Positions 1 through 43,123 of a stretch of DNA of 64,000 nucleotides are shown piece by piece. A program made the translations under genes and the position numbers. Source of the DNA: Aliarcobacter lanthieri (GTDB taxonomy: Bacteria > Campylobacterota > Campylobacteria > Campylobacterales > Arcobacteraceae). The stretch lies in contig NZ_CP053839.1 of NCBI RefSeq assembly GCF_013201625.1, positions 682,001-746,000 on the forward strand, read 5' to 3'. Every line of letters starts with the position of its first letter. Positions within the stretch are counted from its first letter, which is position 1. Below the pieces are notes generated by a model that was not told where the DNA came from, searched no databases, and was given only the letters and a program-made list of their open reading frames with translations.

Positions 1-574
1 TTGCTTCATCTAATTTATCAAATTTAGATTTTTTAACTATTTTTACATTTTTTACATTACCTTTTTTCATTACATCAAAATTAACTTCAACTTTTCCCGT
101 TTGATTTAATCTTTTTGCAACTCTTGGGTAGACTTTATTCTTTTCTACTTTTGCTTTAACTTTTGCTAAATAAGCACTTTCTAAATTATGTACTTGTGCA
201 GGGTTTACATTTTTTACAGGAGCTTCTTCTACTGGAGCTGTTTGAGTTGGTTGTGGTGCCACAACATTTTCTACAACTTTTTCAATAGGTTTTTCTTGTA
301 TATGTTCTTTTTTTGGTTTTTTAGGCTTTTCTGGTTTTTTTATTGGTGTTGGTTTTTCAATAATTGGTTCAGGCTCTGGCTCTGGTTCAGGCTCTGGAGG
401 AGTTGGCTCAGGTTGTACTTGAGCCACTTCTACTGTTGATAAAGATATTGTTGTAATTTCCTCAGCTGCCTTGTCTGGGATAATTAAAGCATTCGCAAAA
501 ACAAAGAAAGCAAAAAATCCTACTATTGCATATATCGTACTTGTAATTAGGAATGAACTTTGGTATCTATTCAT
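1..574 (-). CDS. tonB: TonB energy transducer (3' end cut by window edge)
   Basis: TonB couples the proton motive force harvested by ExbB/ExbD to outer-membrane siderophore, heme and metal receptors. The visible 191 codons begin with a short cytoplasmic start and one membrane anchor (about residues 8-28), followed by a long proline-rich periplasmic linker with alternating Glu-Pro repeats (about residues 55-75) and Lys-Pro/Lys-rich stretches. The last visible part (AYLAKVKAKVEKNKVYPRVA) is the start of the C-terminal TonB fold, whose end lies outside the window. It follows exbD by 3 bases, so exbB-exbD-tonB is one operon. Start ATG at 574-572. The gene identification is firm; the partner receptors are not visible. 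Confidence 0.93.
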   Translation of the reverse strand, partial: MNRYQSSFLITSTIYAIVGFFAFFVFANALIIPDKAAEEITTISLSTVEVAQVQPEPTPPEPEPEPEPEPIIEKPTPIKKPEKPKKPKKEHIQEKPIEKVVENVVAPQPTQTAPVEEAPVKNVNPAQVHNLESAYLAKVKAKVEKNKVYPRVAKRLNQTGKVEVNFDVMKKGNVKNVKIVKKSKFDKLDEA

Positions 575-577
575 TAG

Positions 578-955
578 TTACTTCTTTGTTACTATTGAAA
601 CATTTGAATAAGAATTCTTTTTTAACATATCAAGTACATTTACAAATGATTCAAATTTTGTATTTTTATCTGTATGTATATGAACTGGAGTTTCTATTGA
701 TTTTTGTAAAATAGATTTTTCTAATTCTTCTAATACAAGAGGAGTTTCTTCTAAAAATAATTCACCATTTTCATTTATAACTATTACTATTTCTTTATCT
801 GGTTTAAGTTGCTCTGAACTACTAGAATTTGGTAATGCAACAGGTATTATTCCTTTTGTAATAAATGTTGAAGTTAATAAAACAATTGCTAAAAGTACAA
901 GTAAAACGTCAATAAACGGTATTACATTTATTGAATCATATTTCTGTAGCTTCAT
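578..955 (-). CDS. exbD: ExbD biopolymer transport protein
   Basis: Inner-membrane proton-channel subunit of the Ton system. The 125-residue protein has the family layout: short cytoplasmic N-terminus, one membrane helix (about residues 12-32) and a periplasmic domain. The essential membrane aspartate of ExbD/TolR proteins is visible as Asp16 in the NVIPFIDVLLVLL segment. It overlaps the end of exbB by 20 bases and is followed by tonB after 3 bases, which argues for translational coupling of all three subunits. It could in principle be a TolR, but the adjacent tonB makes ExbD the better call. Confidence 0.93.
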   Translation of the reverse strand: MKLQKYDSINVIPFIDVLLVLLAIVLLTSTFITKGIIPVALPNSSSSEQLKPDKEIVIVINENGELFLEETPLVLEELEKSILQKSIETPVHIHTDKNTKFESFVNVLDMLKKNSYSNVSIVTKK

Positions 956-1367
956 AATCGCTCTCCAAAACTTCTGCTGATCTTCCTAGAATATTATACA
1001 TAACCATAGAAATGATAGCAACAACAAGTCCAACAGCAGTTGCTTTAAGTGCTAAAGCTAAACTTTCCATAATTTTAGCAGCATCAATATCTCCATTCCC
1101 CATTGTCATAAATGTAAGCATAATGGCTAAAACAGTTCCAAGAAGTCCAATATAAGGAGCATTTGATGCAATAGTTCCAATAATAGTTAAATGTTTTGTT
1201 AAAGCTACATCTAAAGACTTTTTATTTTTGTAATCTTTTACGTTTATTTTTTTATAAAATAACACTCTTTCTATAAAAAAGAAAACAGCAACAAAACTCA
1301 TAATAACAAGTAGAACAATAACCCCATAGTCAACTAAATGCTTTAGCGTTTCAATATCTTCCATCAT
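936..1367 (-). CDS. exbB: ExbB biopolymer transport protein (MotA/TolQ/ExbB family)
   Basis: Pentameric inner-membrane scaffold and proton channel that works with ExbD and TonB. The start is set to ATG at 1367 because an AAGGA ribosome site sits 8 bases upstream; an in-frame ATG at 1409 would only add an unlikely charged leader, and ATG at 1364 is also possible. The 143-residue product has three membrane helices (about residues 12-34, 72-92, 105-127) with the conserved small-residue segment APYIGLLGTV of the family. It is the short ExbB type typical of Helicobacter and Campylobacter relatives. The gene lies behind a Fur-like palindrome, so iron repression is likely. Confidence 0.92.
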   Translation of the reverse strand: MMEDIETLKHLVDYGVIVLLVIMSFVAVFFFIERVLFYKKINVKDYKNKKSLDVALTKHLTIIGTIASNAPYIGLLGTVLAIMLTFMTMGNGDIDAAKIMESLALALKATAVGLVVAIISMVMYNILGRSAEVLESDYEATEI

Positions 1368-1428
1368 AATTTTTTTCCTTAAACTAAAAATTTTTGTAAT
1401 TATAATCAAAAAACTTTAATTTTGTATT

Positions 1429-1444
1429 AATGATAATTATCAAG
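1429..1444. promoter_or_regulatory. Fur-like box between exbB and tolC-type gene
   Basis: The 12-base perfect palindrome TGATAATTATCA (1431-1442) matches the core of Fur boxes. It lies 64 bases upstream of the exbB start and 76 bases upstream of the divergent efflux gene. Position and content fit iron-dependent repression of exbB-exbD-tonB; binding itself is inferred. Confidence 0.65.
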
Positions 1445-1494
1445 ATGCAAGAATGGATTAAAATTTTGTTAAAATACCGTTAAAATTTAGAACA

Positions 1495-1500
1495 TATAAT
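1495..1500 (+). promoter_or_regulatory. Probable -10 element of the efflux operon
   Basis: A perfect TATAAT hexamer 19 bases upstream of the start of the outer-membrane efflux gene, with an AAGGATG ribosome site right at the start codon. No convincing -35 hexamer is visible, as is common in this phylum. Confidence 0.5.
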
Positions 1501-1519
1501 TCCACATAAAAATTTAAGG

Positions 1520-2743
1520 ATGAAAAAATTGCGTAAAGTACTTTTATTCTCAATCATTTGTAGTATTGCAATTGCAGATACAAATAATTTAGAGATTCTA
1601 CAAAAAGATAAAAAAGAGTTAAGGGAACTTGAAAAACAATCAATAGAAACAAGCTATGAAACTTTAAAAAATGATTGGATAGGAACTATTGATATAAGTT
1701 CAAGTGTAAATAGAAATCACTCTTTTGATAAAGATAAATCAGATGATGGAAGATATGGTAAAACGGCAAGAATAGGTTTTACACAATCAGTATTTGAATC
1801 TGGTGGAATAATGCTTACAATTCAATATGCAAAAGACAAGTTAAAATATGATTTATTATCTTGGCAAAATCAAAATCAACAATTGTTACAAACTATTTAT
1901 ACTACTTTATTGGATATCAAAAAATTAAAATTACAAATTGCACAAAGTAAGTATAGATTAGAAAATAAAGATATAGAATTGATAATAAAAAAAATACAGT
2001 ATGAAGCAGGAAAAACTGATATTATTGAATTAAATAATGCTGTTATGTCAAAAAACAATCAATTTAAAGAAAATATTAGTTTAGAAAATACTTTAAAAGA
2101 AAAAGAGTATGAGTTATCTAAATATACTGATTTGAAATCTGATGAAATAGAAATAATTGATTTTTATGTAGTATCAAAAGATGATTTTATTAACAATAAT
2201 ATAGATATATTGCAAGAAGATTCAAAAATTGATATGATGAATACAAATTATAAAAAAGTAAAAACAAATTATCTTCCAAAAGTTTCTCTTACTTCTAATG
2301 CAAGTTATAGTTCTAGTGATAGTGAATTTAACAAAATGGCAAGAAATACAAATAAAGATGATGCACAATCAACTGCAAGTTTGACTTTGTCTATGCCACT
2401 TTTTGATTATAATAGGTCAAATAAAATACAAGAAGCAAAAATAGATTATCTAAAACAAAAAATACAGGTAAATGATTTGAAAAATGAAGTAGCTTTTGAT
2501 TATGAACAAACTTTAAATCAAATTGATACATATGAAAAACATATTAAAACAATAGAAGAAAATATTAGATTATATGATGATTTAATATCAGCAAATCAAA
2601 TTTCAAATGATGCAGGAATGACTTCTGAATATGATTTGGATATTCTAAAAAATACAAAACTGATAAATGAGTATGATATGGTAATCAATGATATAAATAT
2701 CAAACTTCAATATGCAAAACTATACTTTAAGATAAAAGGTTAA
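1520..2743 (+). CDS. TolC-like outer membrane efflux protein
   Basis: Outer-membrane channel of a tripartite exporter. The 407-residue protein starts with a Sec signal peptide (cleavage plausible after AIA at about residue 19). The rest is Gln/Asn/Lys-rich, predicted helical and coiled coil with two internally similar halves, as in the TolC/OEP family; a segment TASLTLSMPLFDYNRSNKI is typical of the second OEP repeat. It is 6 bases upstream of the adaptor gene, so the channel, adaptor, ATPase and permease form one operon. The transported substrate cannot be told from sequence. Confidence 0.85.
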   Translation: MKKLRKVLLFSIICSIAIADTNNLEILQKDKKELRELEKQSIETSYETLKNDWIGTIDISSSVNRNHSFDKDKSDDGRYGKTARIGFTQSVFESGGIMLTIQYAKDKLKYDLLSWQNQNQQLLQTIYTTLLDIKKLKLQIAQSKYRLENKDIELIIKKIQYEAGKTDIIELNNAVMSKNNQFKENISLENTLKEKEYELSKYTDLKSDEIEIIDFYVVSKDDFINNNIDILQEDSKIDMMNTNYKKVKTNYLPKVSLTSNASYSSSDSEFNKMARNTNKDDAQSTASLTLSMPLFDYNRSNKIQEAKIDYLKQKIQVNDLKNEVAFDYEQTLNQIDTYEKHIKTIEENIRLYDDLISANQISNDAGMTSEYDLDILKNTKLINEYDMVINDINIKLQYAKLYFKIKG

Positions 2744-2749
2744 TAAAAG

Positions 2750-4015
2750 ATGAGTAATGAAAATTTAATAAATGAGTTAAATAGCTATAAAACAAAAAGT
2801 TCAAAAAAGCTATATATTTGGATAAGTACAGCAATAGTTTTAGCTGTTATTATGGTGTATTTCTTCATATTTAACTCAGCAAATAAAGCATTGAAAATTG
2901 AATATGTAACAAAAGCTGTTGAAAGAGGAGATTTGTCAGTTATTGTTAGTGCTACAGGAAATTTAAATCCTACAAATAGTGTTGAAATAGGTATAGAAGT
3001 TTCTGGAACAATAAAAGAAATTTTTGTTGATTATAATGATGAAGTAACAGTTGGACAGATTTTAGCAAAACTTGATACTGTAAAATTACAATCACAAGTT
3101 GATAGTTCAATAGCAGCTTTAGCAATTGCAAAAGCAAATTTAAAAGAGAGTGAAGTTAATGTAAAAAATAAAAAGATTTTATATGAGAGAACTTTAAAAA
3201 TGTATAATGAATCAAATGGAAAATATCCATCAAAGAATGAACTTGATGATTCAAAATTTTCTTATGAAGCAGCTTTAGCTTCTCTTGAAGCAACAAAAGC
3301 AAAAGTTCTACAATCAGAATCAAATGTAAAAACCGATAAACAAAATCTTGAAAAAGCTTCTGTAAAATCTTCTATAGATGGAATTGTTTTAAATAGAGAA
3401 GTTGAGGTAGGACAAACTTTAGCTGCAACTATGTCTGCTCCAAAACTTTTTACTTTAGCAAAAGATTTAAAAAGTATGGATTTAATTGTAAGTATTGATG
3501 AAGCTGATGTTGCTGATATTAAAAAAGGCTTACCAGTTACATTTACTGTTGATGCTTATCCAAATAGAACATTTTTAGGAAAGATAAAACAAGTAAGATT
3601 AAATCCTATAGATTCAAATGGTGTTGTAACTTATGAAACAGTAGTTGAAGTAAATAATGAAGATTTAGTATTAAAACCAGGTATGACAGCAACTGCTAAA
3701 ATTGTTACAAAAGATAGTAAAGATAATATTTTAGTTCCAAATAGTGCATTGCGATTTAAACCAAGAGCACAAGAACAAGCTAGTAGTGGACCTGTAAAAC
3801 TTGCTGGACCAAATATGCCAAATAGACCAGGTCCTGTTACAAAGGATTTGAGTAAACAAAATTTAGCTTCAATATATATATTAGAGAATGGTCAACCTAA
3901 AAGAGTTATGGTTAAAATTTTGGATACAGATGGAAAATCTTCAGCTATTGAATCTAAAGATTTAAATATTGGTGATCTAGTAATTATTTCACAAAAGAGT
4001 GAAAATGCAAGATAA
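2750..4015 (+). CDS. MacA/HlyD-like periplasmic adaptor subunit
   Basis: Membrane fusion protein linking the MacB-type permease to the TolC-like channel. It has an N-terminal membrane anchor (about residues 21-43), a lipoyl-like half (SVEIGIEVSGTIKEIFVDYN), a helical hairpin of about 100 residues, a second lipoyl half (SSIDGIVLNREVEVGQTL) and beta-barrel and membrane-proximal domains to residue 421. The order matches MacA and other RND/ABC adaptors. A Pro-rich insertion near residues 340-365 in the last domain is unusual but not disruptive. The ABC partner that follows makes MacA-like the best label. Confidence 0.88.
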   Translation: MSNENLINELNSYKTKSSKKLYIWISTAIVLAVIMVYFFIFNSANKALKIEYVTKAVERGDLSVIVSATGNLNPTNSVEIGIEVSGTIKEIFVDYNDEVTVGQILAKLDTVKLQSQVDSSIAALAIAKANLKESEVNVKNKKILYERTLKMYNESNGKYPSKNELDDSKFSYEAALASLEATKAKVLQSESNVKTDKQNLEKASVKSSIDGIVLNREVEVGQTLAATMSAPKLFTLAKDLKSMDLIVSIDEADVADIKKGLPVTFTVDAYPNRTFLGKIKQVRLNPIDSNGVVTYETVVEVNNEDLVLKPGMTATAKIVTKDSKDNILVPNSALRFKPRAQEQASSGPVKLAGPNMPNRPGPVTKDLSKQNLASIYILENGQPKRVMVKILDTDGKSSAIESKDLNIGDLVIISQKSENAR

Positions 4016-4709
4016 AAAAACAATAATTGAATTTAAAAATATTGTTAAAAGTTATGGAAGTGGACAAAATATTACTCATGCCCTAAATGGTGTTGATTTA
4101 AAAATTTATGAAGGTGAATTTGTTGCTATTATGGGAGCAAGTGGAAGTGGAAAATCAACTTCTATGAATATGATTGGATGTTTAGATAAACCAACAAGTG
4201 GAGAATATTTGTTTAATGGAATAAATGTAGAAAAACTAAATAGAAATCAAATGGCACTTTTAAGAAGAAATTATTTAGGTTTTGTTTTTCAAGGATTTAA
4301 TCTTTTAGGAAGAACTTCTGCTTTAGAAAATGTTGAACTTCCTTTGATATATAGAAAAGTTCCAGCAAAAGAGAGAGAAGTTTTAGCTATAGAAGCTTTA
4401 AATAAAGTAGGGCTTGGAAGTGTTATAAAAAATACTCCAGCTGAACTTAGTGGTGGACAGCAACAACGTGTTGCAATAGCAAGAGCAATAGTTACAAATC
4501 CTTTGGTATTATTAGCAGATGAACCAACAGGGAATCTTGATAGTATTAAAAGTATTGAAATTATGAATTTATTAAAAAAATTAAATCAAGAGTCAAAAAT
4601 TACTATAATAATGGTAACTCATGAAGAAGATATGGCTGCTTATGCAGATAGGGTAATTTATTTTAGAGATGGACATATTGAAGATAGTTTAAAGAAAGGA
4701 TTTAAATAA
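3999..4709 (+). CDS. MacB/LolD-type ABC transporter ATPase
   Basis: ATP-hydrolysing subunit of the exporter. Counting from the GTG at 3999, Walker [10 protein letters not shown] is at 46-54, the signature LSGGQ at 150-154, Walker B LLADEP at 171-176 and the switch histidine at 208 (MVTHEE). The product is about 236 residues, the LolD/MacB-N size. It overlaps the end of the adaptor gene by 17 bases; the start is either GTG 3999 or ATG 4005. In E. coli MacB the ATPase is fused to the permease; here the two are separate chains, joined by a TAATG overlap. Confidence 0.9.
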
Positions 4710-5920
4710 TGTTAGTAAATGCTTTTTTAATAGCTATTAAAGAGATAAAAAGAAATATTTTAAGATCTGTTCTTACAATTCTTGGAATAGTAATAGGTGT
4801 TGCTTCTGTTATAGCTATGGTTATGATAGGTGATGGAACAACTCAAAATGTACGAGATAGTATTACAAAACTTGGAAGTAATATGTTAACTTTGCGAGTG
4901 GGGCAAGAAAGAAGAGGTATTCCAAGAGAAGATAATAGTTCAAAACCTTTTACAAATGAAGATATTGTTGCTATAAAAAGTGAAATTGCAAACATAAAAG
5001 CAGCTACTTCTGAAGGTTCATCAAGGATGAATATCGTATATGGAAATAAAAGTCATGCTTCAAGTGTTATAGGAACAGATAATGATTACTTTATAGTAAA
5101 AGATTGGGCTTTACAAGATGGAAGGACTTTTGATGATAGTGAAATTGCTAGTGGAAAATCATCTTGCATTATAGGAACAACTATTGTAAAACAACTTTTT
5201 GGAGAAGAGAATCCAATAGGAGCAAATATAAGATTAAAAAATATTACTTGTAATGTAATAGGAGTTTTACAATCCAAAGGGGCAGCTGCTTTTGGAAATG
5301 ATCAAGATGAGATAGTGGTTGTTCCTGTAAGTATGTTTCAAAGAAAAATATTAGGTAAAAAAGATGTATCATCTGTAATAATTTCTATAACACAAGAACA
5401 ATATATTGAAGATGCAAAAACGGATATTATAGCTTTGATGCAAGAGCGTAGAGCAATAAAAGTTGGTGAACCAGATAATTTTCACATTAGAGATATGAAA
5501 GATATTTTAGAAACTATGACATCAACTACAACTATGCTTACATATTTGTTGGGGTCTATTGCTGCTATTTCTTTACTTGTTGGTGGAATTGGTATTATGA
5601 ATATTATGCTTGTTTCTGTAACTGAACGAACAAGAGAAATAGGAACTAGACTTGCTATTGGAGCTATGGAAAATGAAGTTTTAATGCAATTTTTAGTTGA
5701 AGCAATAGTATTGTCAACTTGGGGTGGAATCATTGGTATTGTTTTAGGACTTGGTATTGGATATGGAGTTGTAAGTTTTATGCAATTACCTTATATTATA
5801 AATCATCAAATTATTTTAATATCATTTATTTTTTCTACTTTAATAGGAGTTGTTTTTGGATATTTCCCCGCAAGAAAGGCTGCAAGATTAAATCCTATTG
5901 AAGCTTTACGATATGAGTAA
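4709..5920 (+). CDS. MacB-type ABC transporter permease (FtsX family)
   Basis: Membrane subunit of the tripartite exporter. The 403-residue protein has the MacB/FtsX layout: membrane helix 1 near residues 18-42, a periplasmic domain of about 230 residues, then three helices in the last 130 residues. The signature NIMLVSVTERTREIGTRLAI precedes helix 3, and the C-terminus PARKAARLNPIEALRYE is the family's usual ending. Its ATG shares one base with the stop codon of the ATPase gene, so the two are translationally coupled. Known MacAB-TolC systems move macrolides, peptides or heme precursors; the substrate here is unknown. Confidence 0.9.
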   Translation: MLVNAFLIAIKEIKRNILRSVLTILGIVIGVASVIAMVMIGDGTTQNVRDSITKLGSNMLTLRVGQERRGIPREDNSSKPFTNEDIVAIKSEIANIKAATSEGSSRMNIVYGNKSHASSVIGTDNDYFIVKDWALQDGRTFDDSEIASGKSSCIIGTTIVKQLFGEENPIGANIRLKNITCNVIGVLQSKGAAAFGNDQDEIVVVPVSMFQRKILGKKDVSSVIISITQEQYIEDAKTDIIALMQERRAIKVGEPDNFHIRDMKDILETMTSTTTMLTYLLGSIAAISLLVGGIGIMNIMLVSVTERTREIGTRLAIGAMENEVLMQFLVEAIVLSTWGGIIGIVLGLGIGYGVVSFMQLPYIINHQIILISFIFSTLIGVVFGYFPARKAARLNPIEALRYE

Positions 5921-35474: not shown

Positions 35475-35499
35475 TAACTAAGGCAATTAGCCTTAGTTA
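35475..35499. terminator. Bidirectional terminator between the fumC unit and the feo-side gene
   Basis: A perfect 10-bp stem TAACTAAGGC/GCCTTAGTTA with an AATTA loop. It lies 9 bases after the plus-strand stop and includes the minus-strand stop codon at 35493-35495. Confidence 0.7.
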
Positions 35500-35795
35500 A
35501 TATCTTTACTTTTTACAATAACTTCATGACCTTCTCCACCATCTAAAACGGCATTAAAATCACCAGCTGGTTTATCAAAAGTTATTTCACTATTTTCATC
35601 AATTTTTGTTTGAAGAATAACCTTACCATCTTGTACTACTTTGAAATTTACTCCACTAGCACTACTCCCATCACTAAAACCACCTTCGCAAGTGATAGTG
35701 TTGTCTCCATTATCAAAACAACTCATTAAAGCTGAGTGTCCAAAAGCTGAACTTGCTGCTAAAATAGCAACTGAAAATATAGTTTTTTTAATCAT
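35493..35795 (-). CDS. Small periplasmic protein downstream of feoB
   Basis: A 100-residue protein with a Sec signal peptide (cleavage near FGHSA, about residue 19). The mature part has two cysteines (LMSCFDNG, TITCEGGFSDG) that could form a disulfide, and a Gly/Asp-rich beta-type sequence ending VIVKSKDIN. I recall similar small proteins beside metal-uptake genes in this phylum but know no function. It is 47 bases after feoB on the same strand and may share its transcript. The histidine after the signal (GHSA) echoes DUF4198-type proteins such as the one at 41246, but that link is weak. Confidence 0.65.
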   Translation of the reverse strand: MIKKTIFSVAILAASSAFGHSALMSCFDNGDNTITCEGGFSDGSSASGVNFKVVQDGKVILQTKIDENSEITFDKPAGDFNAVLDGGEGHEVIVKSKDIN

Positions 35796-35842: not shown

Positions 35843-38299
35843 TTAAGATTTATGCAATCCTCCTTTCCAGTTTATAAATTTAGTAGGGAAAAGTCCTAGA
35901 ACTAAAGTTATAAATAGTACAGAAAAATAAAAATAAGCCATAGCTTCAAGTCCACTCCATAGATATATATTTCCAAGTGTGAAAATAAATGATGATATAA
36001 TAAGTCCAAGACCTATAGGGAAAAATGTAGCAAATAACATCCAATTAAAGCTATTAGTTTGCATTTTTACAACTATCATAGTTGCTATACAAGGAGGAGT
36101 TAAAAGCATAAAAATTATAATTGAAGCTGCATGAAGTGGTGTGTATCCACTATTCTCTGCCATTGCTTCTTCTGCTCTTTGATTATCTGCTTTATTATTC
36201 TCATATAAACTTCCTAAGGTTGCAACAGCACTTTCTCTTGCTGCAAATGAACTTAAAAATGCTACATTTATTTTCCAATCAAATCCTGCATATTGACTTA
36301 TTGGTTCTATTGCTTTACCAGCCATTCCTAAAAGAGAATTTTCAACTTTTTCATTCTTTATCTCTCTAAGAATAGTTTTTCTATCATTTGATAGTTTTCT
36401 TAATGCTGCATTGATTTTTCTAGCTTCTGGATCATTTTGGACATTTATAAATGAGTAAAAGATTTCATTTTTAGCTTTGAAATTATCATCTATACTAGAT
36501 GATGAACTTGTCATTTTTTTTGTTCTATAGTTATCATACATATTTAAAAGTTCTGATACTTTTTCTTTTGAGTTAATATGTTCATAATATACAGAGTTTT
36601 TCATTTTTGAATCAAAGTCCATTAAAGCTTTATTAGACATATCATCATATTTTATTTGAGATTCTTCACTAAGACCTGGAAATTGTAATAATGCAAAAAG
36701 TACAATAGCTACTGCTAAAACAATAGTTACAACTTTTTTAATATAAATCCAAACTCTTTGAGATGAACGAATTACAACTCCTTTTAGAGTTGGTAAGTGA
36801 TATGGTGGTAACTCCATTACAAATGGTGCTGTTTCTCTATTTCTTAAAACAGTAGTAGTTAAAATTTTTGCAACAATTAGTGCTGTAAATACAGTTGCAG
36901 TAGAAATGAAAAACATCATTAAAGCCATATCCGGTTTAAAAAATGCCCCAAGAAGTAATGTGTAAAATGGAACTTTAGCTAAACAGTTCATATAAGGAAC
37001 TGTTAAAACTGTAGCCATTCTAGCTCTATCATCAGCTATTCCTTTTGTTGCCATAACTCCTGGAACTGCACAACCTCCTACCATTGCTCCACCAAGAACT
37101 AGTGGGAGAGTTGATTGTCCATGAAGTCCAAATTTTTTAAATACTCTATCAAGAATAAATGCCATTCTAGGCATATATCCAACATCTTCCATTATAGCTA
37201 TTAGTGCAAAAAGTATAAAAAATATAGGAATATAGTTAAGTAAAGCATTTGCACTATTTACCATCCAAATGGCAAAATCACTTATCATTGGTACATCTGT
37301 AAAATCAGCATCAGGTACAATATCTATTACAAAGTTTTTTATACTAGCTAAAATTGGCCATGTATAATCTGTAAGTTTATATCCATAAACAATAGATATT
37401 TGATAAACTAAGAACATCAAAGCAAACAAAATAGGTAAGGCTAAAAATCTATTTAATATGATTTTATCAGCTTTATCTGTAAAGGTTTCTTTTCCTTTTT
37501 TCTCTTCTTTTACATTTTTTGAATATATTATTTCTGCACTATCATATCTAAATGTTGCAAGAAATGTTGTTATGTTTTTATTGTATTTTTCTTCAAAACT
37601 TTTTTTTGCATTCTCTAATTTGCCATATATATTAGGGATTTCTTTTTCTAAATGTTCAACAACTGTTGTATCATTTTCTAAAGCTTTTATAGCTAGCCAT
37701 CTTTTTGAAATATTTAAATCTGAAGTTTGTATTTCCGCTTCTATTTCTTGTATATAGCTTTCTAATTCTTCATAATTTAATTCAAATTTTTCAAATTTCT
37801 CTTGTTTTTCATAAATACTAACAATAGATTTCATTATATCATCACCACCAATGCCTTTAGCACCATTAGCTTCTATAACTGGGCACTTTAGCATTGAAGA
37901 GATTTTGTTACTATCAATTTTTATTCCTCTTCTTTGGGCAACATCTATCATGTTTAATACCACAACAACAGGTAAACCCATTTCTAAAAGTTGAAAAGTT
38001 AAATATAAATGTCTTTTTAAATTTGAAGAATCAATAACATTTACTATAATATCTGGTTTTTCATGTATTATAAATTCTTTTGCTACTCTTTCTTCTAATG
38101 AATATGAACTAAAAGAGTAAGTTCCTGGTAAATCTACCATTTCTATTTTATAATCTTCATATCTAAAGAAACCAGTTTTTTTATCTACTGTTACACCTGG
38201 ATAGTTTGCAATATGTTGTTCAATCCCACTTACAAGATTGAATATTGTAGATTTACCACAGTTTGGTTGACCGGCTAATACTGTTCTTATTTTTTTCAT
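35843..38299 (-). CDS. feoB: Ferrous iron transporter FeoB
   Basis: Inner-membrane Fe(II) importer. The 818-residue protein has an N-terminal G domain (G1 GQPNCGKST at about 9-17, G3 VDLPGTYSF, G4 NMID), a helical regulatory domain, and the membrane part with paired Gate repeats (GGAMVGGCAVPGVMATKGIA with the conserved Cys, MNCLAKVPFYTLL, and FAARESAVATLGSLY). A Ser/Lys-rich soluble loop of about 140 residues lies between the last Gate helices. ATG overlaps the feoA stop by 4 bases. Iron regulation is expected but no box directly precedes feoB. Confidence 0.97.
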   Translation of the reverse strand: MKKIRTVLAGQPNCGKSTIFNLVSGIEQHIANYPGVTVDKKTGFFRYEDYKIEMVDLPGTYSFSSYSLEERVAKEFIIHEKPDIIVNVIDSSNLKRHLYLTFQLLEMGLPVVVVLNMIDVAQRRGIKIDSNKISSMLKCPVIEANGAKGIGGDDIMKSIVSIYEKQEKFEKFELNYEELESYIQEIEAEIQTSDLNISKRWLAIKALENDTTVVEHLEKEIPNIYGKLENAKKSFEEKYNKNITTFLATFRYDSAEIIYSKNVKEEKKGKETFTDKADKIILNRFLALPILFALMFLVYQISIVYGYKLTDYTWPILASIKNFVIDIVPDADFTDVPMISDFAIWMVNSANALLNYIPIFFILFALIAIMEDVGYMPRMAFILDRVFKKFGLHGQSTLPLVLGGAMVGGCAVPGVMATKGIADDRARMATVLTVPYMNCLAKVPFYTLLLGAFFKPDMALMMFFISTATVFTALIVAKILTTTVLRNRETAPFVMELPPYHLPTLKGVVIRSSQRVWIYIKKVVTIVLAVAIVLFALLQFPGLSEESQIKYDDMSNKALMDFDSKMKNSVYYEHINSKEKVSELLNMYDNYRTKKMTSSSSSIDDNFKAKNEIFYSFINVQNDPEARKINAALRKLSNDRKTILREIKNEKVENSLLGMAGKAIEPISQYAGFDWKINVAFLSSFAARESAVATLGSLYENNKADNQRAEEAMAENSGYTPLHAASIIIFMLLTPPCIATMIVVKMQTNSFNWMLFATFFPIGLGLIISSFIFTLGNIYLWSGLEAMAYFYFSVLFITLVLGLFPTKFINWKGGLHKS

Positions 38300-38520
38300 A
38301 TCATCTCTATTTCTATTAAATTTGCTTCACTTTTTCTAAGTGTTAAATTATAATTATGTATTTTTAATTCCATTGGATCATATAATGGGGCCTCTCTTAT
38401 AACTTCTAAAATAGCACCTTCTACAAAGCCCATATCGAGAAGTTTATATAGTAATTTTCCTTCAGCATTTAGTTTTATAACTTTAACTTTACTTTTCTCT
38501 TTTACTTCATTTAGTAACAC
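38296..38520 (-). CDS. feoA: FeoA iron transport accessory protein
   Basis: Small cytoplasmic SH3-like protein that supports FeoB. Translation from the GTG at 38520 gives 74 residues, the usual FeoA size, with KLLYKLLDMGFVEGAILEVI and the RKSEANLIEIEMI end. I chose GTG 38520 because AAAGGAGA lies 5 bases upstream; the ATG further out (38553) would overlap the preceding membrane gene by 23 bases and add eleven residues that include the ribosome site. It is 10 bases after the ABC permease gene, so the ABC genes and feoAB look like one transcript. Confidence 0.9.
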   Translation of the reverse strand: MLLNEVKEKSKVKVIKLNAEGKLLYKLLDMGFVEGAILEVIREAPLYDPMELKIHNYNLTLRKSEANLIEIEMI

Positions 38521-38530
38521 AAGTTCTCCT

Positions 38531-40144
38531 TTATTCTTCAAATTTAATATCATTTAATTTTTGTAAGTTGTCTTTTGAAAATCTTACAGCAAAATAATTA
38601 TTACCATCGTCATAACGCACAAGATAATGTGTAGGTTCAGATATAAATCTTAATCTCATATTTTTATAATCAAACAATTCTAAATCAAGTTTTTTTAATT
38701 CAAAATCCCAAGTCAAAAGATAGAAATTAGAGTTTCTATCTATTGCATAACCACTAAAATTCTTCTGTCTATTTTCTGAAATATGAATATATTCAATCTC
38801 TATATTTTTATCTAGATTTATCTTTTTTAAAATTAGGTTATTATCATATTTTCTTAAATTAAATAGATTGTTTTTACTATCTAATATTAAATAACCTAAA
38901 TCAAAAGGTTTTATATTTGTAGCTTTTCCAAATATTTTTTTAGCTGGGAATGAAAAATCTTTCTCTTTTAATATTTCATTTAGCTCTTTTGAAGATTTTT
39001 CTAAATATTTGTTATCAAAGTCATATATTTTTATAGTATTTTCAAAAAAACCAAAAAACTCTTCTGCAAACTTTATCATAGCAACATTACTTTGAGGATT
39101 AAATAGTGGAAAAAAATCTATTTCTTTTTTTTCTAAATATTTTACTTGATAATCAAAGCTTAATTTTGAATCACGTATTTCATTTTTAGTAAAAATTTTA
39201 TTGTTTATTGTGATAGGAAGTTTATTTTGTAATTCTAAATCTCTGTAATATACAAAAGGTAGAGTTGATTCATACTCTTTTTGGTCAAAAGTTCTTTTAT
39301 CTTTTACTCCATACTCAAATCTGTGTGCTCCAAAGTTTTTTTGATATACAAAATCTTCTAAAATATCTGAATAGAAAATATAGTATTTATAAAACTCTTT
39401 TTGATAGTTCTTGTCGTAGTTTATATATGATAAATATGTGAATATTATAAGAATTATAGTAAATGAACTATTGTAAATAACTCCTAATCTTTGGTGTTTG
39501 ATACTATAAAAACTATCAATAAGCATAAAGAGTGAAAACATAACTAAAACAAAATATAAACTAAAATCTTCTAAAAAAAATCTTGATTTTATAGATAAAA
39601 ATATAAATAAGATAAAAATTAATAGTTTTAAAATCAATACTTTTTTATTTTGTTCAATTATTAAAGATGATACTAAAATATATGAAACAATACCTATTAA
39701 AGTGAAAGCAATATTATCTTTTGTCATAATATATAGTAGTTCTTTGGGATAATATTGTGAGTTTATTATTAAAAGAAAAATAGAAAAAATAAAACTAAAA
39801 AATAACATAATAGTTATTGTAATAATAGTATGGTAAAGTACTATTTTAGTAAGGCTCAAAGGTAAGTGAATTGTTAATTTTACTCTTTTTTGTATAACTT
39901 CTGGTAAAAATTGAGTAAAAGCATAAGATATTCCATAAAGTATATAAAAATATAGAAAATAAGAATAAGGTTTATCTTCTAGTTGTGCAAATTTATACCA
40001 CATCATACTTTCTGGTTCTATTGTTGAAAAGCTAAAGTTTAAATTAAAATAGTAATAAGCTAATAAAACAATATAAAATATTGTAGATAATAATAAGAAA
40101 TATTTGAGTTTTATTAACTCTTTTTGTAGTATTGCTTTTATCAT
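38531..40144 (-). CDS. ABC-2 type membrane subunit with large soluble C-terminal half
   Basis: A 537-residue protein. The first half has about seven membrane helices (near residues 15-37, 65-85, 105-127, 145-162, 168-187, 195-215, 223-240), as in ABC-2 type permeases. The second half (about 245-537) is soluble, rich in Lys, Asp, Phe and Tyr, with repeated short strands that look propeller-like (LGYLILDSKNNLFNLRKYD, GYAIDRNSNFYLLTWDFELK). I tentatively link it to DUF4857-type proteins. It shares one base with the stop of the ATPase gene, which makes the pair a transporter. Its position before feoA hints at a role in iron or heme handling. Confidence 0.6.
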   Translation of the reverse strand: MIKAILQKELIKLKYFLLLSTIFYIVLLAYYYFNLNFSFSTIEPESMMWYKFAQLEDKPYSYFLYFYILYGISYAFTQFLPEVIQKRVKLTIHLPLSLTKIVLYHTIITITIMLFFSFIFSIFLLIINSQYYPKELLYIMTKDNIAFTLIGIVSYILVSSLIIEQNKKVLILKLLIFILFIFLSIKSRFFLEDFSLYFVLVMFSLFMLIDSFYSIKHQRLGVIYNSSFTIILIIFTYLSYINYDKNYQKEFYKYYIFYSDILEDFVYQKNFGAHRFEYGVKDKRTFDQKEYESTLPFVYYRDLELQNKLPITINNKIFTKNEIRDSKLSFDYQVKYLEKKEIDFFPLFNPQSNVAMIKFAEEFFGFFENTIKIYDFDNKYLEKSSKELNEILKEKDFSFPAKKIFGKATNIKPFDLGYLILDSKNNLFNLRKYDNNLILKKINLDKNIEIEYIHISENRQKNFSGYAIDRNSNFYLLTWDFELKKLDLELFDYKNMRLRFISEPTHYLVRYDDGNNYFAVRFSKDNLQKLNDIKFEE

Positions 40145-40989
40145 TAATATTTACCTACAAATCCTAGAAATTTATCTTCAAAATCTATATCGATTTCTTC
40201 TAGATTATTAAAAGTATCAAATGTATAGATTTTTTGATACTCTTTTAAAGTTTCTATTCTATGAATATTGTTTATAGTTAATTTTTCATTTTTTGGTGCT
40301 TTGTAGCATTTAAAATCTGATATAAAATCTTTCATACTACTTTTATGAATATTTCCACCTCTTTGAATAATTACAATATCATGTATTAAATCCACTAAGT
40401 CACTCATTACATGAGAAGTAATAAGAACAGTTTTATTTGTCCCTTTTACATAGTCTTTTAAATAATCTATAAAAAGTCTTCTATAACCAGCATCAAGTCC
40501 CATAGAATAGTCATCAAGAATTAAAAGCTTTGCATTTTGAGCAAATAAAAGTCCTAAAACAACTTGAGATTTCTGACCAAAAGAAAGAGTTGATAATTTT
40601 TGATTATAATTTAAATCCATAAGATCTATTAAATCATAAAATATTTTTTTATCCCAATCTTCATAGAAACTTGAAAAAAAGTTTTCAACTTCTTTTATAG
40701 ACATAAAATCATAAGAAATAAACCCCTCATATAATAAAGCTATATTTTTTTTACTTTGAGAACTTAGATTATGAGAGTCTTCTCCAAATATCTCACATTT
40801 TCCATTTTTGGGTTTTAAAAATCCCATCAAAATATTTATTAATGTTGATTTTCCTACACCATTTTTACCTAATAATCCAAAAATTGTTCCCTCTTTTATT
40901 TGGATATTTAGATTTGAATAAATATTCTTATCTTTATATGAATATGATAAATCTTGTATATTTACAACAATATTTTTATTTATCGTCAT
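40144..40989 (-). CDS. ABC transporter ATPase linked to feoAB
   Basis: Nucleotide-binding subunit for the membrane protein that follows. I set the start at ATG 40989 (281 residues) because the longer frame runs through the Cys-rich peptide gene. Walker A GKNGVGKST, signature LSFGQKSQ, and D-loop GLD are present; the residue after the Walker B aspartate is Asp instead of the usual catalytic Glu (LLILDDYSMGLD). It resembles ABC-2 importer/exporter ATPases of the YtrB/CcmA kind. It overlaps the peptide gene by 14 bases and the permease by one base. The substrate is unknown. Confidence 0.8.
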   Translation of the reverse strand: MTINKNIVVNIQDLSYSYKDKNIYSNLNIQIKEGTIFGLLGKNGVGKSTLINILMGFLKPKNGKCEIFGEDSHNLSSQSKKNIALLYEGFISYDFMSIKEVENFFSSFYEDWDKKIFYDLIDLMDLNYNQKLSTLSFGQKSQVVLGLLFAQNAKLLILDDYSMGLDAGYRRLFIDYLKDYVKGTNKTVLITSHVMSDLVDLIHDIVIIQRGGNIHKSSMKDFISDFKCYKAPKNEKLTINNIHRIETLKEYQKIYTFDTFNNLEEIDIDFEDKFLGFVGKY

Positions 40990-41101
40990 TCTTACAAGAT
41001 CCTTTTCCATCTCCACAATTACAACCACTACTCTTAAAAAGTTTTCTATATAAATAATATGCTGCTACTAATGCAATAATCACTAAAAAAATATTTTCCA
41101 T
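40976..41101 (-). CDS. FeoB-associated Cys-rich membrane peptide
   Basis: This 41-residue frame is too short for usual ORF cut-offs. It starts MENIFLVIIALVAAYYLYRK, a single membrane helix, and ends with a Gly/Cys/Lys tail: Cys27, Cys29 and Cys36 in SGCNCGDGKGSCKNDDK. The pattern fits the FeoB-associated Cys-rich membrane protein family, normally encoded next to feoB. AAGGA lies 7 bases before the ATG. Here it is the first gene of the unit peptide-ATPase-permease-feoA-feoB. Metal binding by the tail is likely but inferred. Confidence 0.8.
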   Translation of the reverse strand: MENIFLVIIALVAAYYLYRKLFKSSGCNCGDGKGSCKNDDK

Positions 41102-41130: not shown

Positions 41131-41169
41131 ATTATCAAAATTAACCTTAAGAAGTCTAATTTTGATAAT
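41131..41169. promoter_or_regulatory. Perfect 13-bp inverted repeat in the iron-gene divergent region
   Basis: Arms ATTATCAAAATTA (41131-41143) and TAATTTTGATAAT (41157-41169) are exact reverse complements separated by 13 bases. Each arm contains TTGATAAT or its complement, the half-site pattern of Fur boxes in this phylum. It is 30 bases before the Cys-rich peptide gene and 77 before the DUF4198-like gene, so one regulator could control both directions. Confidence 0.6.
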
Positions 41170-41245: not shown

Positions 41246-41911
41246 ATGAAAAAATTTGTTTATGGTATGATGCTATCATCAGCAGTTGTTGTAGGTGCAA
41301 GTGCACATGAAATTTGGTTAGAATTAGATGGTAAAAAAAATGAAGCTAAGTTATTTTTCGGACACTTTGATGTAAAAGAAAAAGAAAGTGGTGAAAAATT
41401 TGCAAAAATTAAAGAAGGTGTTGCTTATCCAAAAGATTTATTAAAAGAAGTAAAAAGAAATGATGACAATATTACTTATACTTTCTCAAAAGCTACTGAT
41501 GTTGTAGTTGTAAGAGAAGATGCTCCAAGAAAAAGTAGAGCAGAAGGTATTACAACAAAAAGAATTTCTTATTCAAAAGCAGGAGTTTCAAGTAAAGAAT
41601 CTATAGCAAAATTTGATATAGTTCCAGTTGATGCAAGTAAAAATGTTTTTAAATTAGTTTTTGATAACAAAGGTTTAGAAAAAATTAAAGTAACAGCTAT
41701 ATCTCCAACAGGTTGGACAAAAACTTTCTTAACAAATGAAAAAGGTGAATTTACTGTTGAAACACCATGGAAAGGTGGATATCTTTTACAAACAACTTTT
41801 GAAGATGAAACAAAAGGTGAAGAAAATGGTGTAGCTTTCGACAAAACAGTTCATGCATTATCACTTAATATTACAATAGAACAAGGATTACCTTGGGAAG
41901 TAAAAAAATAA
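41246..41911 (+). CDS. DUF4198-like periplasmic protein
   Basis: A 221-residue exported protein with a Sec signal peptide (cleavage after AHE region, near residue 20: VVVGASAHEIWLELDG). The HEIWLE start of the mature protein, the GHFDV strand and the later KVTAISPTGWTKTF and GGYLLQTTFEDE strands fit the DUF4198 family of periplasmic proteins, which are often beside nickel, cobalt or iron uptake genes. The conserved histidine near the new N-terminus may bind metal. It is 9 bases upstream of the PepSY-TM gene. An AGGAG ribosome site precedes the ATG. Confidence 0.75.
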   Translation: MKKFVYGMMLSSAVVVGASAHEIWLELDGKKNEAKLFFGHFDVKEKESGEKFAKIKEGVAYPKDLLKEVKRNDDNITYTFSKATDVVVVREDAPRKSRAEGITTKRISYSKAGVSSKESIAKFDIVPVDASKNVFKLVFDNKGLEKIKVTAISPTGWTKTFLTNEKGEFTVETPWKGGYLLQTTFEDETKGEENGVAFDKTVHALSLNITIEQGLPWEVKK

Positions 41912-41920
41912 AGGTAATTT

Positions 41921-43123
41921 ATGCATAAAAAACTTTGGTTTCAAATTCACTGGCTTTTAGGGATAGTATTTGGTATAACTTTGATTCTTATTGGTATTTC
42001 AGGAGCAGTTTGGTCTTACCAAAAAGAGATAATGAGATTAATAAATTCAGATACTTATACAGTACAAATCCCTCAAAATCAGGAAATTTTGACTGTTCAA
42101 GAGATTTTAGAAAAATATCAAGAGCAAAATAAAGATAGAAAAATAAATAGTATATCTTTCTCAACTGATAAAAGTTCTAGTGTCTCTATGAGTCTTGCTT
42201 CTCTAGATCCAAACAATAGAAGAGGTGAAACAATATATTTGAACCCGTATACAGCTGAAGTTTTACCAGAATTAGTAGGTGGTGATTTCTTTAATTTTTT
42301 CTTTAGACTTCACAGATGGCTTACATTTTCTGGAGATATTCAATATATTGGTAAAAATGTAGTTGCTATTTCAACTATTGCTTGTATTCTTTTAGTAATA
42401 AGTGGGATAATTGTTTATTGGCCAAGAATAAAATATGCTTTTTTTAAAAGCTTTACATTTAGTTTCAAAACTAAAAAAAGAGCTTTTTTATCAACTATGC
42501 ATAGTGCTATTGGTTTATGGCTTATTATTCCATTTTTGCTTATGTGTTTAACTGGACTTTATTGGTCTTATGATTGGTATAGAAGTGCAATGTTTTCTGT
42601 TATGGGAGTTGAACAACCACAAAGAAATACAGCTCCAGCGCCTCAACAAAATCAACAAGCTAAACAAAGTCAAGAAGGACAAAGAGGTCAAGGGCAACAA
42701 GAAAGAGTTGCTCCAAAACAATTTTCATTCTCTGATGTACAACAAGCTGTTGATATTTTTAACCAAAAAGTTGAAAAAGATTATACAAATGCTAGCATTA
42801 GACTATCACCAACAAAAGATACTATTTATACAATTTCATATAGATTTGTAGATGCAACGCATTTTAGAGAAACAAACTCTATGGAGATTAATATTGCAAA
42901 ATCAGAAGTTTTAAAAGAAGCAAAATATTCTGATAAAAAACTAAATGAAAAAATTATGAGTAGTATGCTCCCTGTACATAGTGGAGAGTTTTTTGGATGG
43001 ATTGGTCAACTAATATTCTTTATATCTTCTGCACTTATGTCTTTATTTGTAATAACAGGATATATGTTATATTATGATAGATATAAGAAGAAAAAAGCTA
43101 AAGAACAAAAATTAAGAGGCTAG
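41921..43123 (+). CDS. PepSY-associated TM protein (putative iron-uptake reductase)
   Basis: A 400-residue inner-membrane protein of the PepSY_TM family. Helix 1 (about 10-33) carries HWLLGIVFGITLILIGISGAVW; further helices lie near 145-165, 190-212 and 355-380, and HRWLTFSGD and MHSAIGLWLIIPFLL include histidines in positions used for heme in related proteins. A Gln-rich linker (about 232-262) lies in the periplasmic loop. Such proteins act beside TonB receptors, probably reducing siderophore-bound iron. No TonB receptor adjoins it here. It forms a two-gene unit with the DUF4198-like gene. Confidence 0.8.
   Translation: MHKKLWFQIHWLLGIVFGITLILIGISGAVWSYQKEIMRLINSDTYTVQIPQNQEILTVQEILEKYQEQNKDRKINSISFSTDKSSSVSMSLASLDPNNRRGETIYLNPYTAEVLPELVGGDFFNFFFRLHRWLTFSGDIQYIGKNVVAISTIACILLVISGIIVYWPRIKYAFFKSFTFSFKTKKRAFLSTMHSAIGLWLIIPFLLMCLTGLYWSYDWYRSAMFSVMGVEQPQRNTAPAPQQNQQAKQSQEGQRGQGQQERVAPKQFSFSDVQQAVDIFNQKVEKDYTNASIRLSPTKDTIYTISYRFVDATHFRETNSMEINIAKSEVLKEAKYSDKKLNEKIMSSMLPVHSGEFFGWIGQLIFFISSALMSLFVITGYMLYYDRYKKKKAKEQKLRG

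Follow-up and report, generated by a model that had tools for sequence, protein, structure and literature searches.

A ferrous iron uptake (Feo) operon in Aliarcobacter lanthieri carries, between its first gene and feoA, an ATP-binding cassette (ABC) transporter of the ABC-2 type whose permease ends in a DUF4857 domain that is predicted to reside in the periplasm. This transporter is an addition to Feo. The operon lies in a stretch of 64,000 nucleotides (contig NZ_CP053839.1, positions 682,001 to 746,000; hereafter the window) that is part of a single 2,276,457-base contig. The order of its genes, the identity of the DUF4857 domain (PF16149, an uncharacterized family) and the linkage of the ABC pair to iron uptake are well supported, and the DUF4857 pump probably assists in the release or removal of iron carriers in the space between the membranes. 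To our knowledge, the freeing of iron from periplasmic chelates and its handover to FeoB are poorly understood, and an ABC module encoded alongside Feo, TonB receptors, PepSY_TM proteins and M16 proteases is a concrete candidate for these steps. DUF4857 also gains a probable pathway, and the Arcobacteraceae feo operon becomes tied to the iron-regulated BT3625-BT3633 locus of Bacteroides thetaiotaomicron. The accessible portion of PMC13001220 likewise leaves periplasmic iron release and handover to FeoB open.

Gene order of the operon

The unit runs on the minus strand from 41101 to 35493 and encodes, in order, a Cys-rich peptide, the ABC ATPase, the permease, FeoA, FeoB and a NikL-like protein (Table 1). 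Five genes with tight junctions had been described in an earlier note made from the letters alone, and the open reading frames (ORFs) and Pfam matches bear this out, with either an overlap or a gap of at most 10 bases at every junction from the peptide through FeoB. The gene set therefore stands, whereas the extent does not: FeoB falls outside the range given at the time, and the unit runs on into the NikL-like gene. The peptide and ATPase genes overlap by 14 bases if the latter starts at ATG 40989 and by 53 bases if it starts at GTG 41028, the end of the ATPase gene and the start of the permease gene have one base in common (40144), and feoA overlaps feoB by 4 bases (38299-38296). The most likely feoA start is a GTG behind an AGGAG, which leaves a 10-base gap after the permease gene and yields a protein of 74 amino acids, the ORF length in 7 of 12 feoA-bearing relatives; the mechanically called ORF begins at 38553. 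The NikL-like gene starts 47 bases past feoB, and a terminator-like hairpin then ends the unit. Between 41101 and 35500, the sole further terminator-like site listed on the minus strand is a 5-pair one inside feoB (37159-37174), from a scan that returned 5 sites in 8.1 kb compared with 2.0 expected by chance.

The Feo assignment is secure by sequence family, since feoA and feoB are adjacent and PF04023, PF02421, PF07670, PF07664, PF17910 and TIGR00437 all score above cut-off, including four FeoB/Gate Pfam models in FeoB; Pfam also confirms FeoA and the ABC_tran domain. The operon resembles a standard Feo operon in having FeoA, FeoB and a peptide of the FeoB-associated type, and differs from it in the ABC pair placed between peptide and feoA and in the NikL-like gene downstream. 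In the literature searched, which covered little subscription literature and included the accessible parts of PMC10353542 and PMC7593965, no description of a feo operon with an ABC-DUF4857 pair was found, and DUF4857 was named in PMC10434189 alone.

Linkage to iron genes across genomes

A census was made of 41 DUF4857 regions from Campylobacterota, the phylum of the window, consisting of the window and 40 others. One genome (G234) contributed two regions, those from G018 and G020 came from relatives of the query P0001, and second copies in G224 and G295 were left out along with a weak match in G037. Gene clusters of the test regions, named by Pfam scans of representatives, supplied the marker profiles, and the following were counted as iron markers: FeoA/B, TonB receptor, TonB, ExbB/D, PepSY_TM, HemP, Fur, NikL-like, DUF4198 and the Cys-rich peptide. 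Forty 15-kb regions taken at hand-picked places (20 of the same genomes) were scanned alike as controls. The window itself was scanned over all 64 kb, and the ExbB, ExbD and TonB genes at 1-1409 are not neighbors of the operon.

At least one iron marker is present in 33 of the 41 regions, compared with 1 of 40 controls (a receptor), and in 30 regions a marker lies within the same-strand run. Receptor profiles match in 21 regions, FeoB in 14, PepSY_TM in 11, M16 in 7 and HemP in 3. For FeoB the corresponding control count is 0 of 40, with one short GTPase match excluded. By one-sided Fisher tests, p is 5e-14 when any marker counts and 2e-5 when FeoB alone counts; both values overstate the case because several regions come from near relatives. 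The proposal that the pair goes with iron uptake has thus held up, and the case for the suspected iron role is now stronger. Relatives whose ABC pair stands apart from iron genes, which had been named beforehand as speaking against such a role, are overall absent, with the exception of the eight marker-free regions described below.

This linkage persists across differing gene orders. The order peptide-ATPase-permease-feoA-feoB-NikL is found in the window, L052, L053, L055, L089 and L090, and without NikL in L054. Elsewhere the order is feoA-feoB-NikL-DUF4198-(x)-peptide-ATPase-permease (L058 and L069; L062 from feoB on; L056 similar), and in L074 the pair and feo converge. These observations bear on the disfavored explanation that the pair is a chance passenger of the feo operon, a transporter with no relation to it. 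Its presence is patchy, with relatives of P0001 in 10 of 60 genomes searched and PF16149 in 38 of 397 genomes of the phylum (the A. lanthieri genome included in both counts), and feo operons lacking the pair exist. Against a chance passenger stand the 33 linked regions with their changing gene orders and the single marked control, and we consider this explanation highly improbable.

Several findings nevertheless weigh against the iron uptake model favored below. The marker profiles derive from the very regions that they were used to score, and one of the 33 positive regions (L057) was scored on a Fur-family gene alone. Eight regions (L061, L070, L071, L084, L085, L087, L088 and L091) have no iron marker; among these, L061 is at a contig edge and L088 is a 5.3-kb contig with M16 only. 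Four others (L084, L085, L087 and L091, family f10) have a fused ABC pair amid apparent housekeeping genes, which by eye resemble ksgA and hisF. In Arcobacteraceae, a long feoB (E <= 1e-100) is present in 18 of 61 genomes, including that of A. lanthieri, and the permease gene lies directly upstream of feoA in only 5 of these 18 loci, so that the pair is an optional addition that Feo does not need; this check covered a 1.5-kb flank, and a pair placed elsewhere would escape it. Furthermore, in the other phylum sampled (see below) the link is weaker, with an iron marker in 7 of 15 regions and an M16 protease in 6 of 15 (local profiles). The 7 of 15 is an undercount, as Pfam adds a receptor plus DUF4876 in L127 and a PepSY_TM-like protein in L126.

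Redox partners recur in both phyla, as PepSY_TM in 11 of 41 regions and as Fer4_5 polyferredoxins, identified by Pfam, in L133 and L136 of the other phylum. Genes for such membrane 4Fe-4S proteins are located beside or near the ABC-DUF4857 cassette (L133:9697-11643, L136:10231-12210 and L128:3-524), and we take their products to be NapH/NosR-like.

Expression data from a related locus are also available. According to the accessible portion of PMC10434189, RNA-seq of B. thetaiotaomicron places BT3625-BT3633 36.7-128-fold up under iron depletion, including BT3625 (DUF4857; 65-fold), BT3626 (37-fold) and BT3627 (ABC ATPase; 40-fold), and the locus also includes PepSY_TM and a TonB receptor. It shares a DUF4857 protein, an ABC ATPase and PepSY_TM with the window, but no feo gene is among the products listed there, and DUF4857 is encoded apart from the probable permease, BT3626, which is annotated as hypothetical.

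The permease and its DUF4857 domain

The permease has 537 residues, of which 256-516 match DUF4857 (237.5 bits compared with a cut-off of 25, spanning profile positions 2-266 of 270). In Aliarcobacter vitoriensis CECT 9230, a relative, the permease is 77% identical. Thus, the large soluble half that the earlier note had suspected of being a sensing or binding domain is indeed a distinct domain. No Pfam ABC-2 model matches the N-terminal half, whose ABC-2/type V fold of six helices is predicted from structural modeling. An AlphaFold2 model of residues 1-250 (predicted local distance difference test, pLDDT, 87; predicted template modeling score 0.87) resembles NosY, ABCG, PmtCD and CcmB structures at Z of about 10-14 over about 200 residues, and these nearest solved folds include exporters. 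NosY chains take ranks 1-5 of the 50 matches shown (7o12_E: Z 14.4, root-mean-square deviation 4.0, 200 aligned residues). ABCG25 and ABCG1 follow at Z 13.3, a tie within about 1 Z, and CcmB and PmtCD at 12.0. Below about Z 13, the tool cautions, helical bundles may have no more than a common arrangement. Foldseek also places NosFY first for the membrane half, with a best E of 0.41 that is not significant, and the NosY lead is suggestive only.

In a model of the full permease (pLDDT 86), seven membrane-length helices are followed by a beta-rich domain whose last 200 residues resemble propeller blades. Foldseek gave no match for the full permease at E <= 0.001, and a sequence search against solved structures gave nothing useful. 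For residues ~340-537, most structure matches are beta-propellers, but their Z of 7-9 is close to what the tool calls common, and for this reason we term the domain only 'propeller-like'. The charge pattern suggests that the N-terminus is inside, and together with seven helices this would place DUF4857 in the periplasm.

Two relatives (L089:6342-7781 and L090:6537-7976) show an in-frame loss of permease residues 183-239 with DUF4857 conserved. The lost residues span transmembrane helix 6 and most of helix 7, which would leave five helices, an odd count that preserves the side on which DUF4857 lies. In split-type relatives, a separate permease of ~225 residues precedes a DUF4857 protein with a hydrophobic segment of its own at the N-terminus and, in most cases, two more at the C-terminus. 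Between 4 and 8 hydropathy segments were counted in these separate permeases, for which six helices would be expected from the fused form.

Across a 23-row DUF4857 alignment no Cys, His or Met reaches 85% conservation, as D173, D180 and E215 do; H32 and M254 are among the residues that reach this level in 12 fused rows. The missing conserved Cys, His and Met would speak against direct handling of metal by DUF4857.

The ATPase and the NosDFY comparison

All 63 family ATPase rows, in which some loci are represented twice, have a Walker B motif that ends D-D, with Asp at the position of the catalytic Glu; the commonest form is LLILDDYSMGLD (27 of 63). Of the 46 ABC_tran matches in the A. lanthieri genome, 30 were retrieved, and the Walker B motif ends D-E in all 27 in which it could be read, leaving 3 in which it could not. 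The Asp at this position makes fast pumping doubtful, a further point against the model favored below.

The fold matches of the membrane half invite comparison with NosDFY, for which a mechanical, ATP-driven model exists and in which NosD is a beta-helix. The two systems would have in common an ABC ATPase, the best-scoring (tied) permease membrane fold, a periplasmic partner and a metal context. The context here is iron, the domain is fused and predicted to be propeller-like, and Walker B ends D-D, whereas the structure entry title 'NosDFY E154Q' shows a Glu that is presumably the Walker B Glu of NosF. A NosDFY-like mode of action would mean that the ABC pair moves no substrate and that ATP drives DUF4857 to pull iron off a chelate or chaperone and hand it to FeoB or another receptor. 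The top rank of the NosY chains in both structure searches would fit this idea. So would the large DUF4857 domain, which in most regions read is part of the permease or the product of an adjacent gene, and the Asp in Walker B might suit slow, regulatory use of ATP. The near tie with ABCG chains, the tool's warning on helical bundles and the missing conserved Cys, His and Met argue the other way. Furthermore, the subset of neighbors scanned with Pfam includes no counterpart of NosL or NosZ. This alternative is possible but rather unlikely. We hold it doubtful that DUF4857-ABC might be a new ATP-driven machine for periplasmic iron release, the iron counterpart of NosDFY for copper, with a degenerate ATPase and no transmembrane substrate. 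For the copper system itself, NosFY and NosD are required for CuZ assembly according to the accessible part of PMC7558416.

Sequence models of the ATPase lead in other directions. A role in heme handling, which had been raised earlier, finds little evidence and was not adopted: the heme exporter model CcmA (TIGR01189) scores 74.7 bits, below its cut-off of 131.6, and HemP is near in three regions. The best NCBIfam match is PmtA, a phenol-soluble-modulin exporter (139.7 bits, below the cut-off of 350). This match, and the M16 proteases near DUF4857 in both phyla, would be expected if the pump, and the protease in other loci, protected cells against sideromycins or peptides that enter by iron routes. 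Among the 14 FeoB-bearing regions, however, a receptor matches in 3 (L056, L089 and L090) and M16 in none, and the induction under iron depletion reported in the accessible part of PMC10434189 fits uptake better than defense. Export of toxic cargo is thus improbable.

A possible role in ligand clearance

We tentatively favor, at less than even confidence, a reductive iron uptake unit whose ABC pump clears iron ligand from the periplasm near FeoB. Iron chelates that reach the periplasm would be reduced by the divergent PepSY_TM protein, and the Fe(II) would be taken inward by FeoAB with aid from the NikL-like protein and the Cys-rich peptide. The ABC-2/type V transporter would spend cytoplasmic ATP, and its periplasmic DUF4857 domain would bind the iron ligand or an iron-loaded partner. 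Freed (or unreduced) ligand might then be removed from the vicinity of FeoB, most likely by export, so that by clearing or handing over periplasmic ligand the pump would let FeoB obtain Fe(II). Iron, and presumably the periplasm, are common to the settings described here.

The steps around the pump have precedents. PepSY-family proteins have been associated with periplasmic reduction of ferri-siderophores, with FeoAB proposed to act next, in the accessible parts of PMC13001220 and PMC11870441, and the latter source also proposes that PepSY/DUF4198 operons aid periplasmic ferric reduction. As described in the accessible part of PMC10760861, ExsFGH of Bradyrhizobium japonicum exports ferric siderophore from the periplasm beside the reductase FsrB and FeoAB. 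Common to the two systems would be reduction in the periplasm, FeoAB and an exporter whose substrate there is ferric siderophore or a like ligand; ExsFGH is a resistance-nodulation-division exporter, of a different family from the ABC pair, and is likened to it by role alone. The PepSY-linked reduction, FeoAB and the B. japonicum exporter lead us to place ligand clearance by an exporter-type fold first and a NosDFY-like machine second. One more point must be set against ligand clearance, in that no partner in the outer membrane came to light through which export could proceed.

Distribution of fused and split forms

The other phylum sampled is that of an Ignavibacteriae record, which we take to be Bacteroidota in GTDB. 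PF16149 is present there in 14 of 395 genomes, counting the one of the record itself. Among 14 control genomes, Bacteroides ihuae alone has it. A quick tree of 50 DUF4857 proteins separates a 23-row clade of split forms from a 27-row clade of fused forms, with one fused ORF of 645 residues (L070) falling inside the split-form clade. Fused forms go mainly with feo (19 of 27 rows) and split forms mainly with TonB receptors (18 of 23); the feo label changes 6 times on the tree compared with 15.4 in shuffles, with both labels assigned by hand. Fusion alone does not mean feo, because L137-L139 of the other phylum, which are off the tree, have fused ORFs of 662-680 residues between receptor-profile matches.

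The split forms raise the prospect of Fus-like piracy, in which the ABC transporter would import what an iron protein releases, either the iron or peptide fragments. A TonB receptor, TonB, an M16 protease and an ABC transporter occur together in split-type L067, L080 and L083, and these are the components listed for FusABCD (PMC5095587, accessible part). The window, in contrast, has no receptor plug in its 64 kb and no M16 match by local profile, and ABC-2 relatives are mostly exporters. Moreover, FusD is one fused ABC protein as described in PMC5095587. Piracy of this type is quite improbable here.

In a Campylobacter metagenome-assembled genome (L105:5910-8281), the ATPase and permease-DUF4857 genes are broken up among several reading frames, suggestive of decay or of an error in the assembly.

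Small partners, divergent genes and regulation

The Cys-rich peptide falls short of its Pfam gathering cut-off (Table 1), but in size, Cys motif and location it is like the peptides that adjoin feo in relatives, both with and without the ABC pair. NikL-like genes occur in 13 of the 14 FeoB-bearing census regions and in 15 of the 18 long-feoB loci of Arcobacteraceae.

Table 1. Features of the feo operon and its divergent neighbors, in window coordinates.
Feature	Position	Strand	Basis
Cys-rich single-transmembrane peptide, 41 residues, FeoB-associated type, first gene	40976..41101	-	PF12669 20.6 bits, below cut-off 27
ABC ATPase, 281 residues, Walker B ending D-D not D-E	40144..40989	-	ABC_tran; motif in 63/63 family rows
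Permease membrane half, residues 1-246, seven membrane-length helices (predicted)	39407..40144	-	predicted models, structure matches
Permease DUF4857 domain, predicted periplasmic, beta-rich, propeller-like blades	38531..39406	-	PF16149 E 2.2e-70
feoA, probable GTG start at 38520	38296..38520	-	PF04023 E 1.7e-18
feoB, 818 residues	35843..38299	-	PF02421, PF07670, PF07664, PF17910, TIGR00437
NikL-like small protein, 100 residues, probably periplasmic	35493..35795	-	NF058648 E 7.1e-12, 45.7 bits, below cut-off 100
Terminator-like hairpin, 10 pairs, T-rich tail on minus strand	35475..35499		terminator scan
Inverted repeat, 18-nucleotide arms, divergent promoter region; possible operator	41131..41169		sequence scan
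Periplasmic-type protein, divergent, weak DUF4198 match	41246..41911	+	PF10670 23.5 bits, below cut-off 34
PepSY_TM protein, divergent, probable periplasmic ferric reductase (by family)	41921..43123	+	PF03929 E 1.4e-62

The divergent PepSY_TM protein is a probable periplasmic ferric reductase, judging by its family, and its histidines 10, 131, 194 and 353 lie near membrane segments by eye. A Fur-box consensus matches 21 times in the window compared with 25 expected by chance; at this chance level we make no claim of Fur control of the divergent promoter. Promoter-like sites likewise number about what chance would give (52 compared with 57.8 expected), and an alignment of nine upstream regions shows little common sequence beyond close relatives.

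The FeoB encoded here has a long hydrophilic stretch between membrane segments (~545-690, by eye). Of the 61 Arcobacteraceae genomes, 43 have nothing that matches it at E <= 1e-100, and the A. lanthieri genome has a second FeoB-type ORF of 640 residues. At 2-5920 in the window, a TonB-ExbD-ExbB set (local profiles) is divergent from an operon that resembles a TolC/MacA/MacB-type exporter by eye. The genome contains 35 TonB-receptor plug matches, so that a nearby receptor would mean less there. This number seems many for 2.28 Mb and suggests broad use of foreign chelates.

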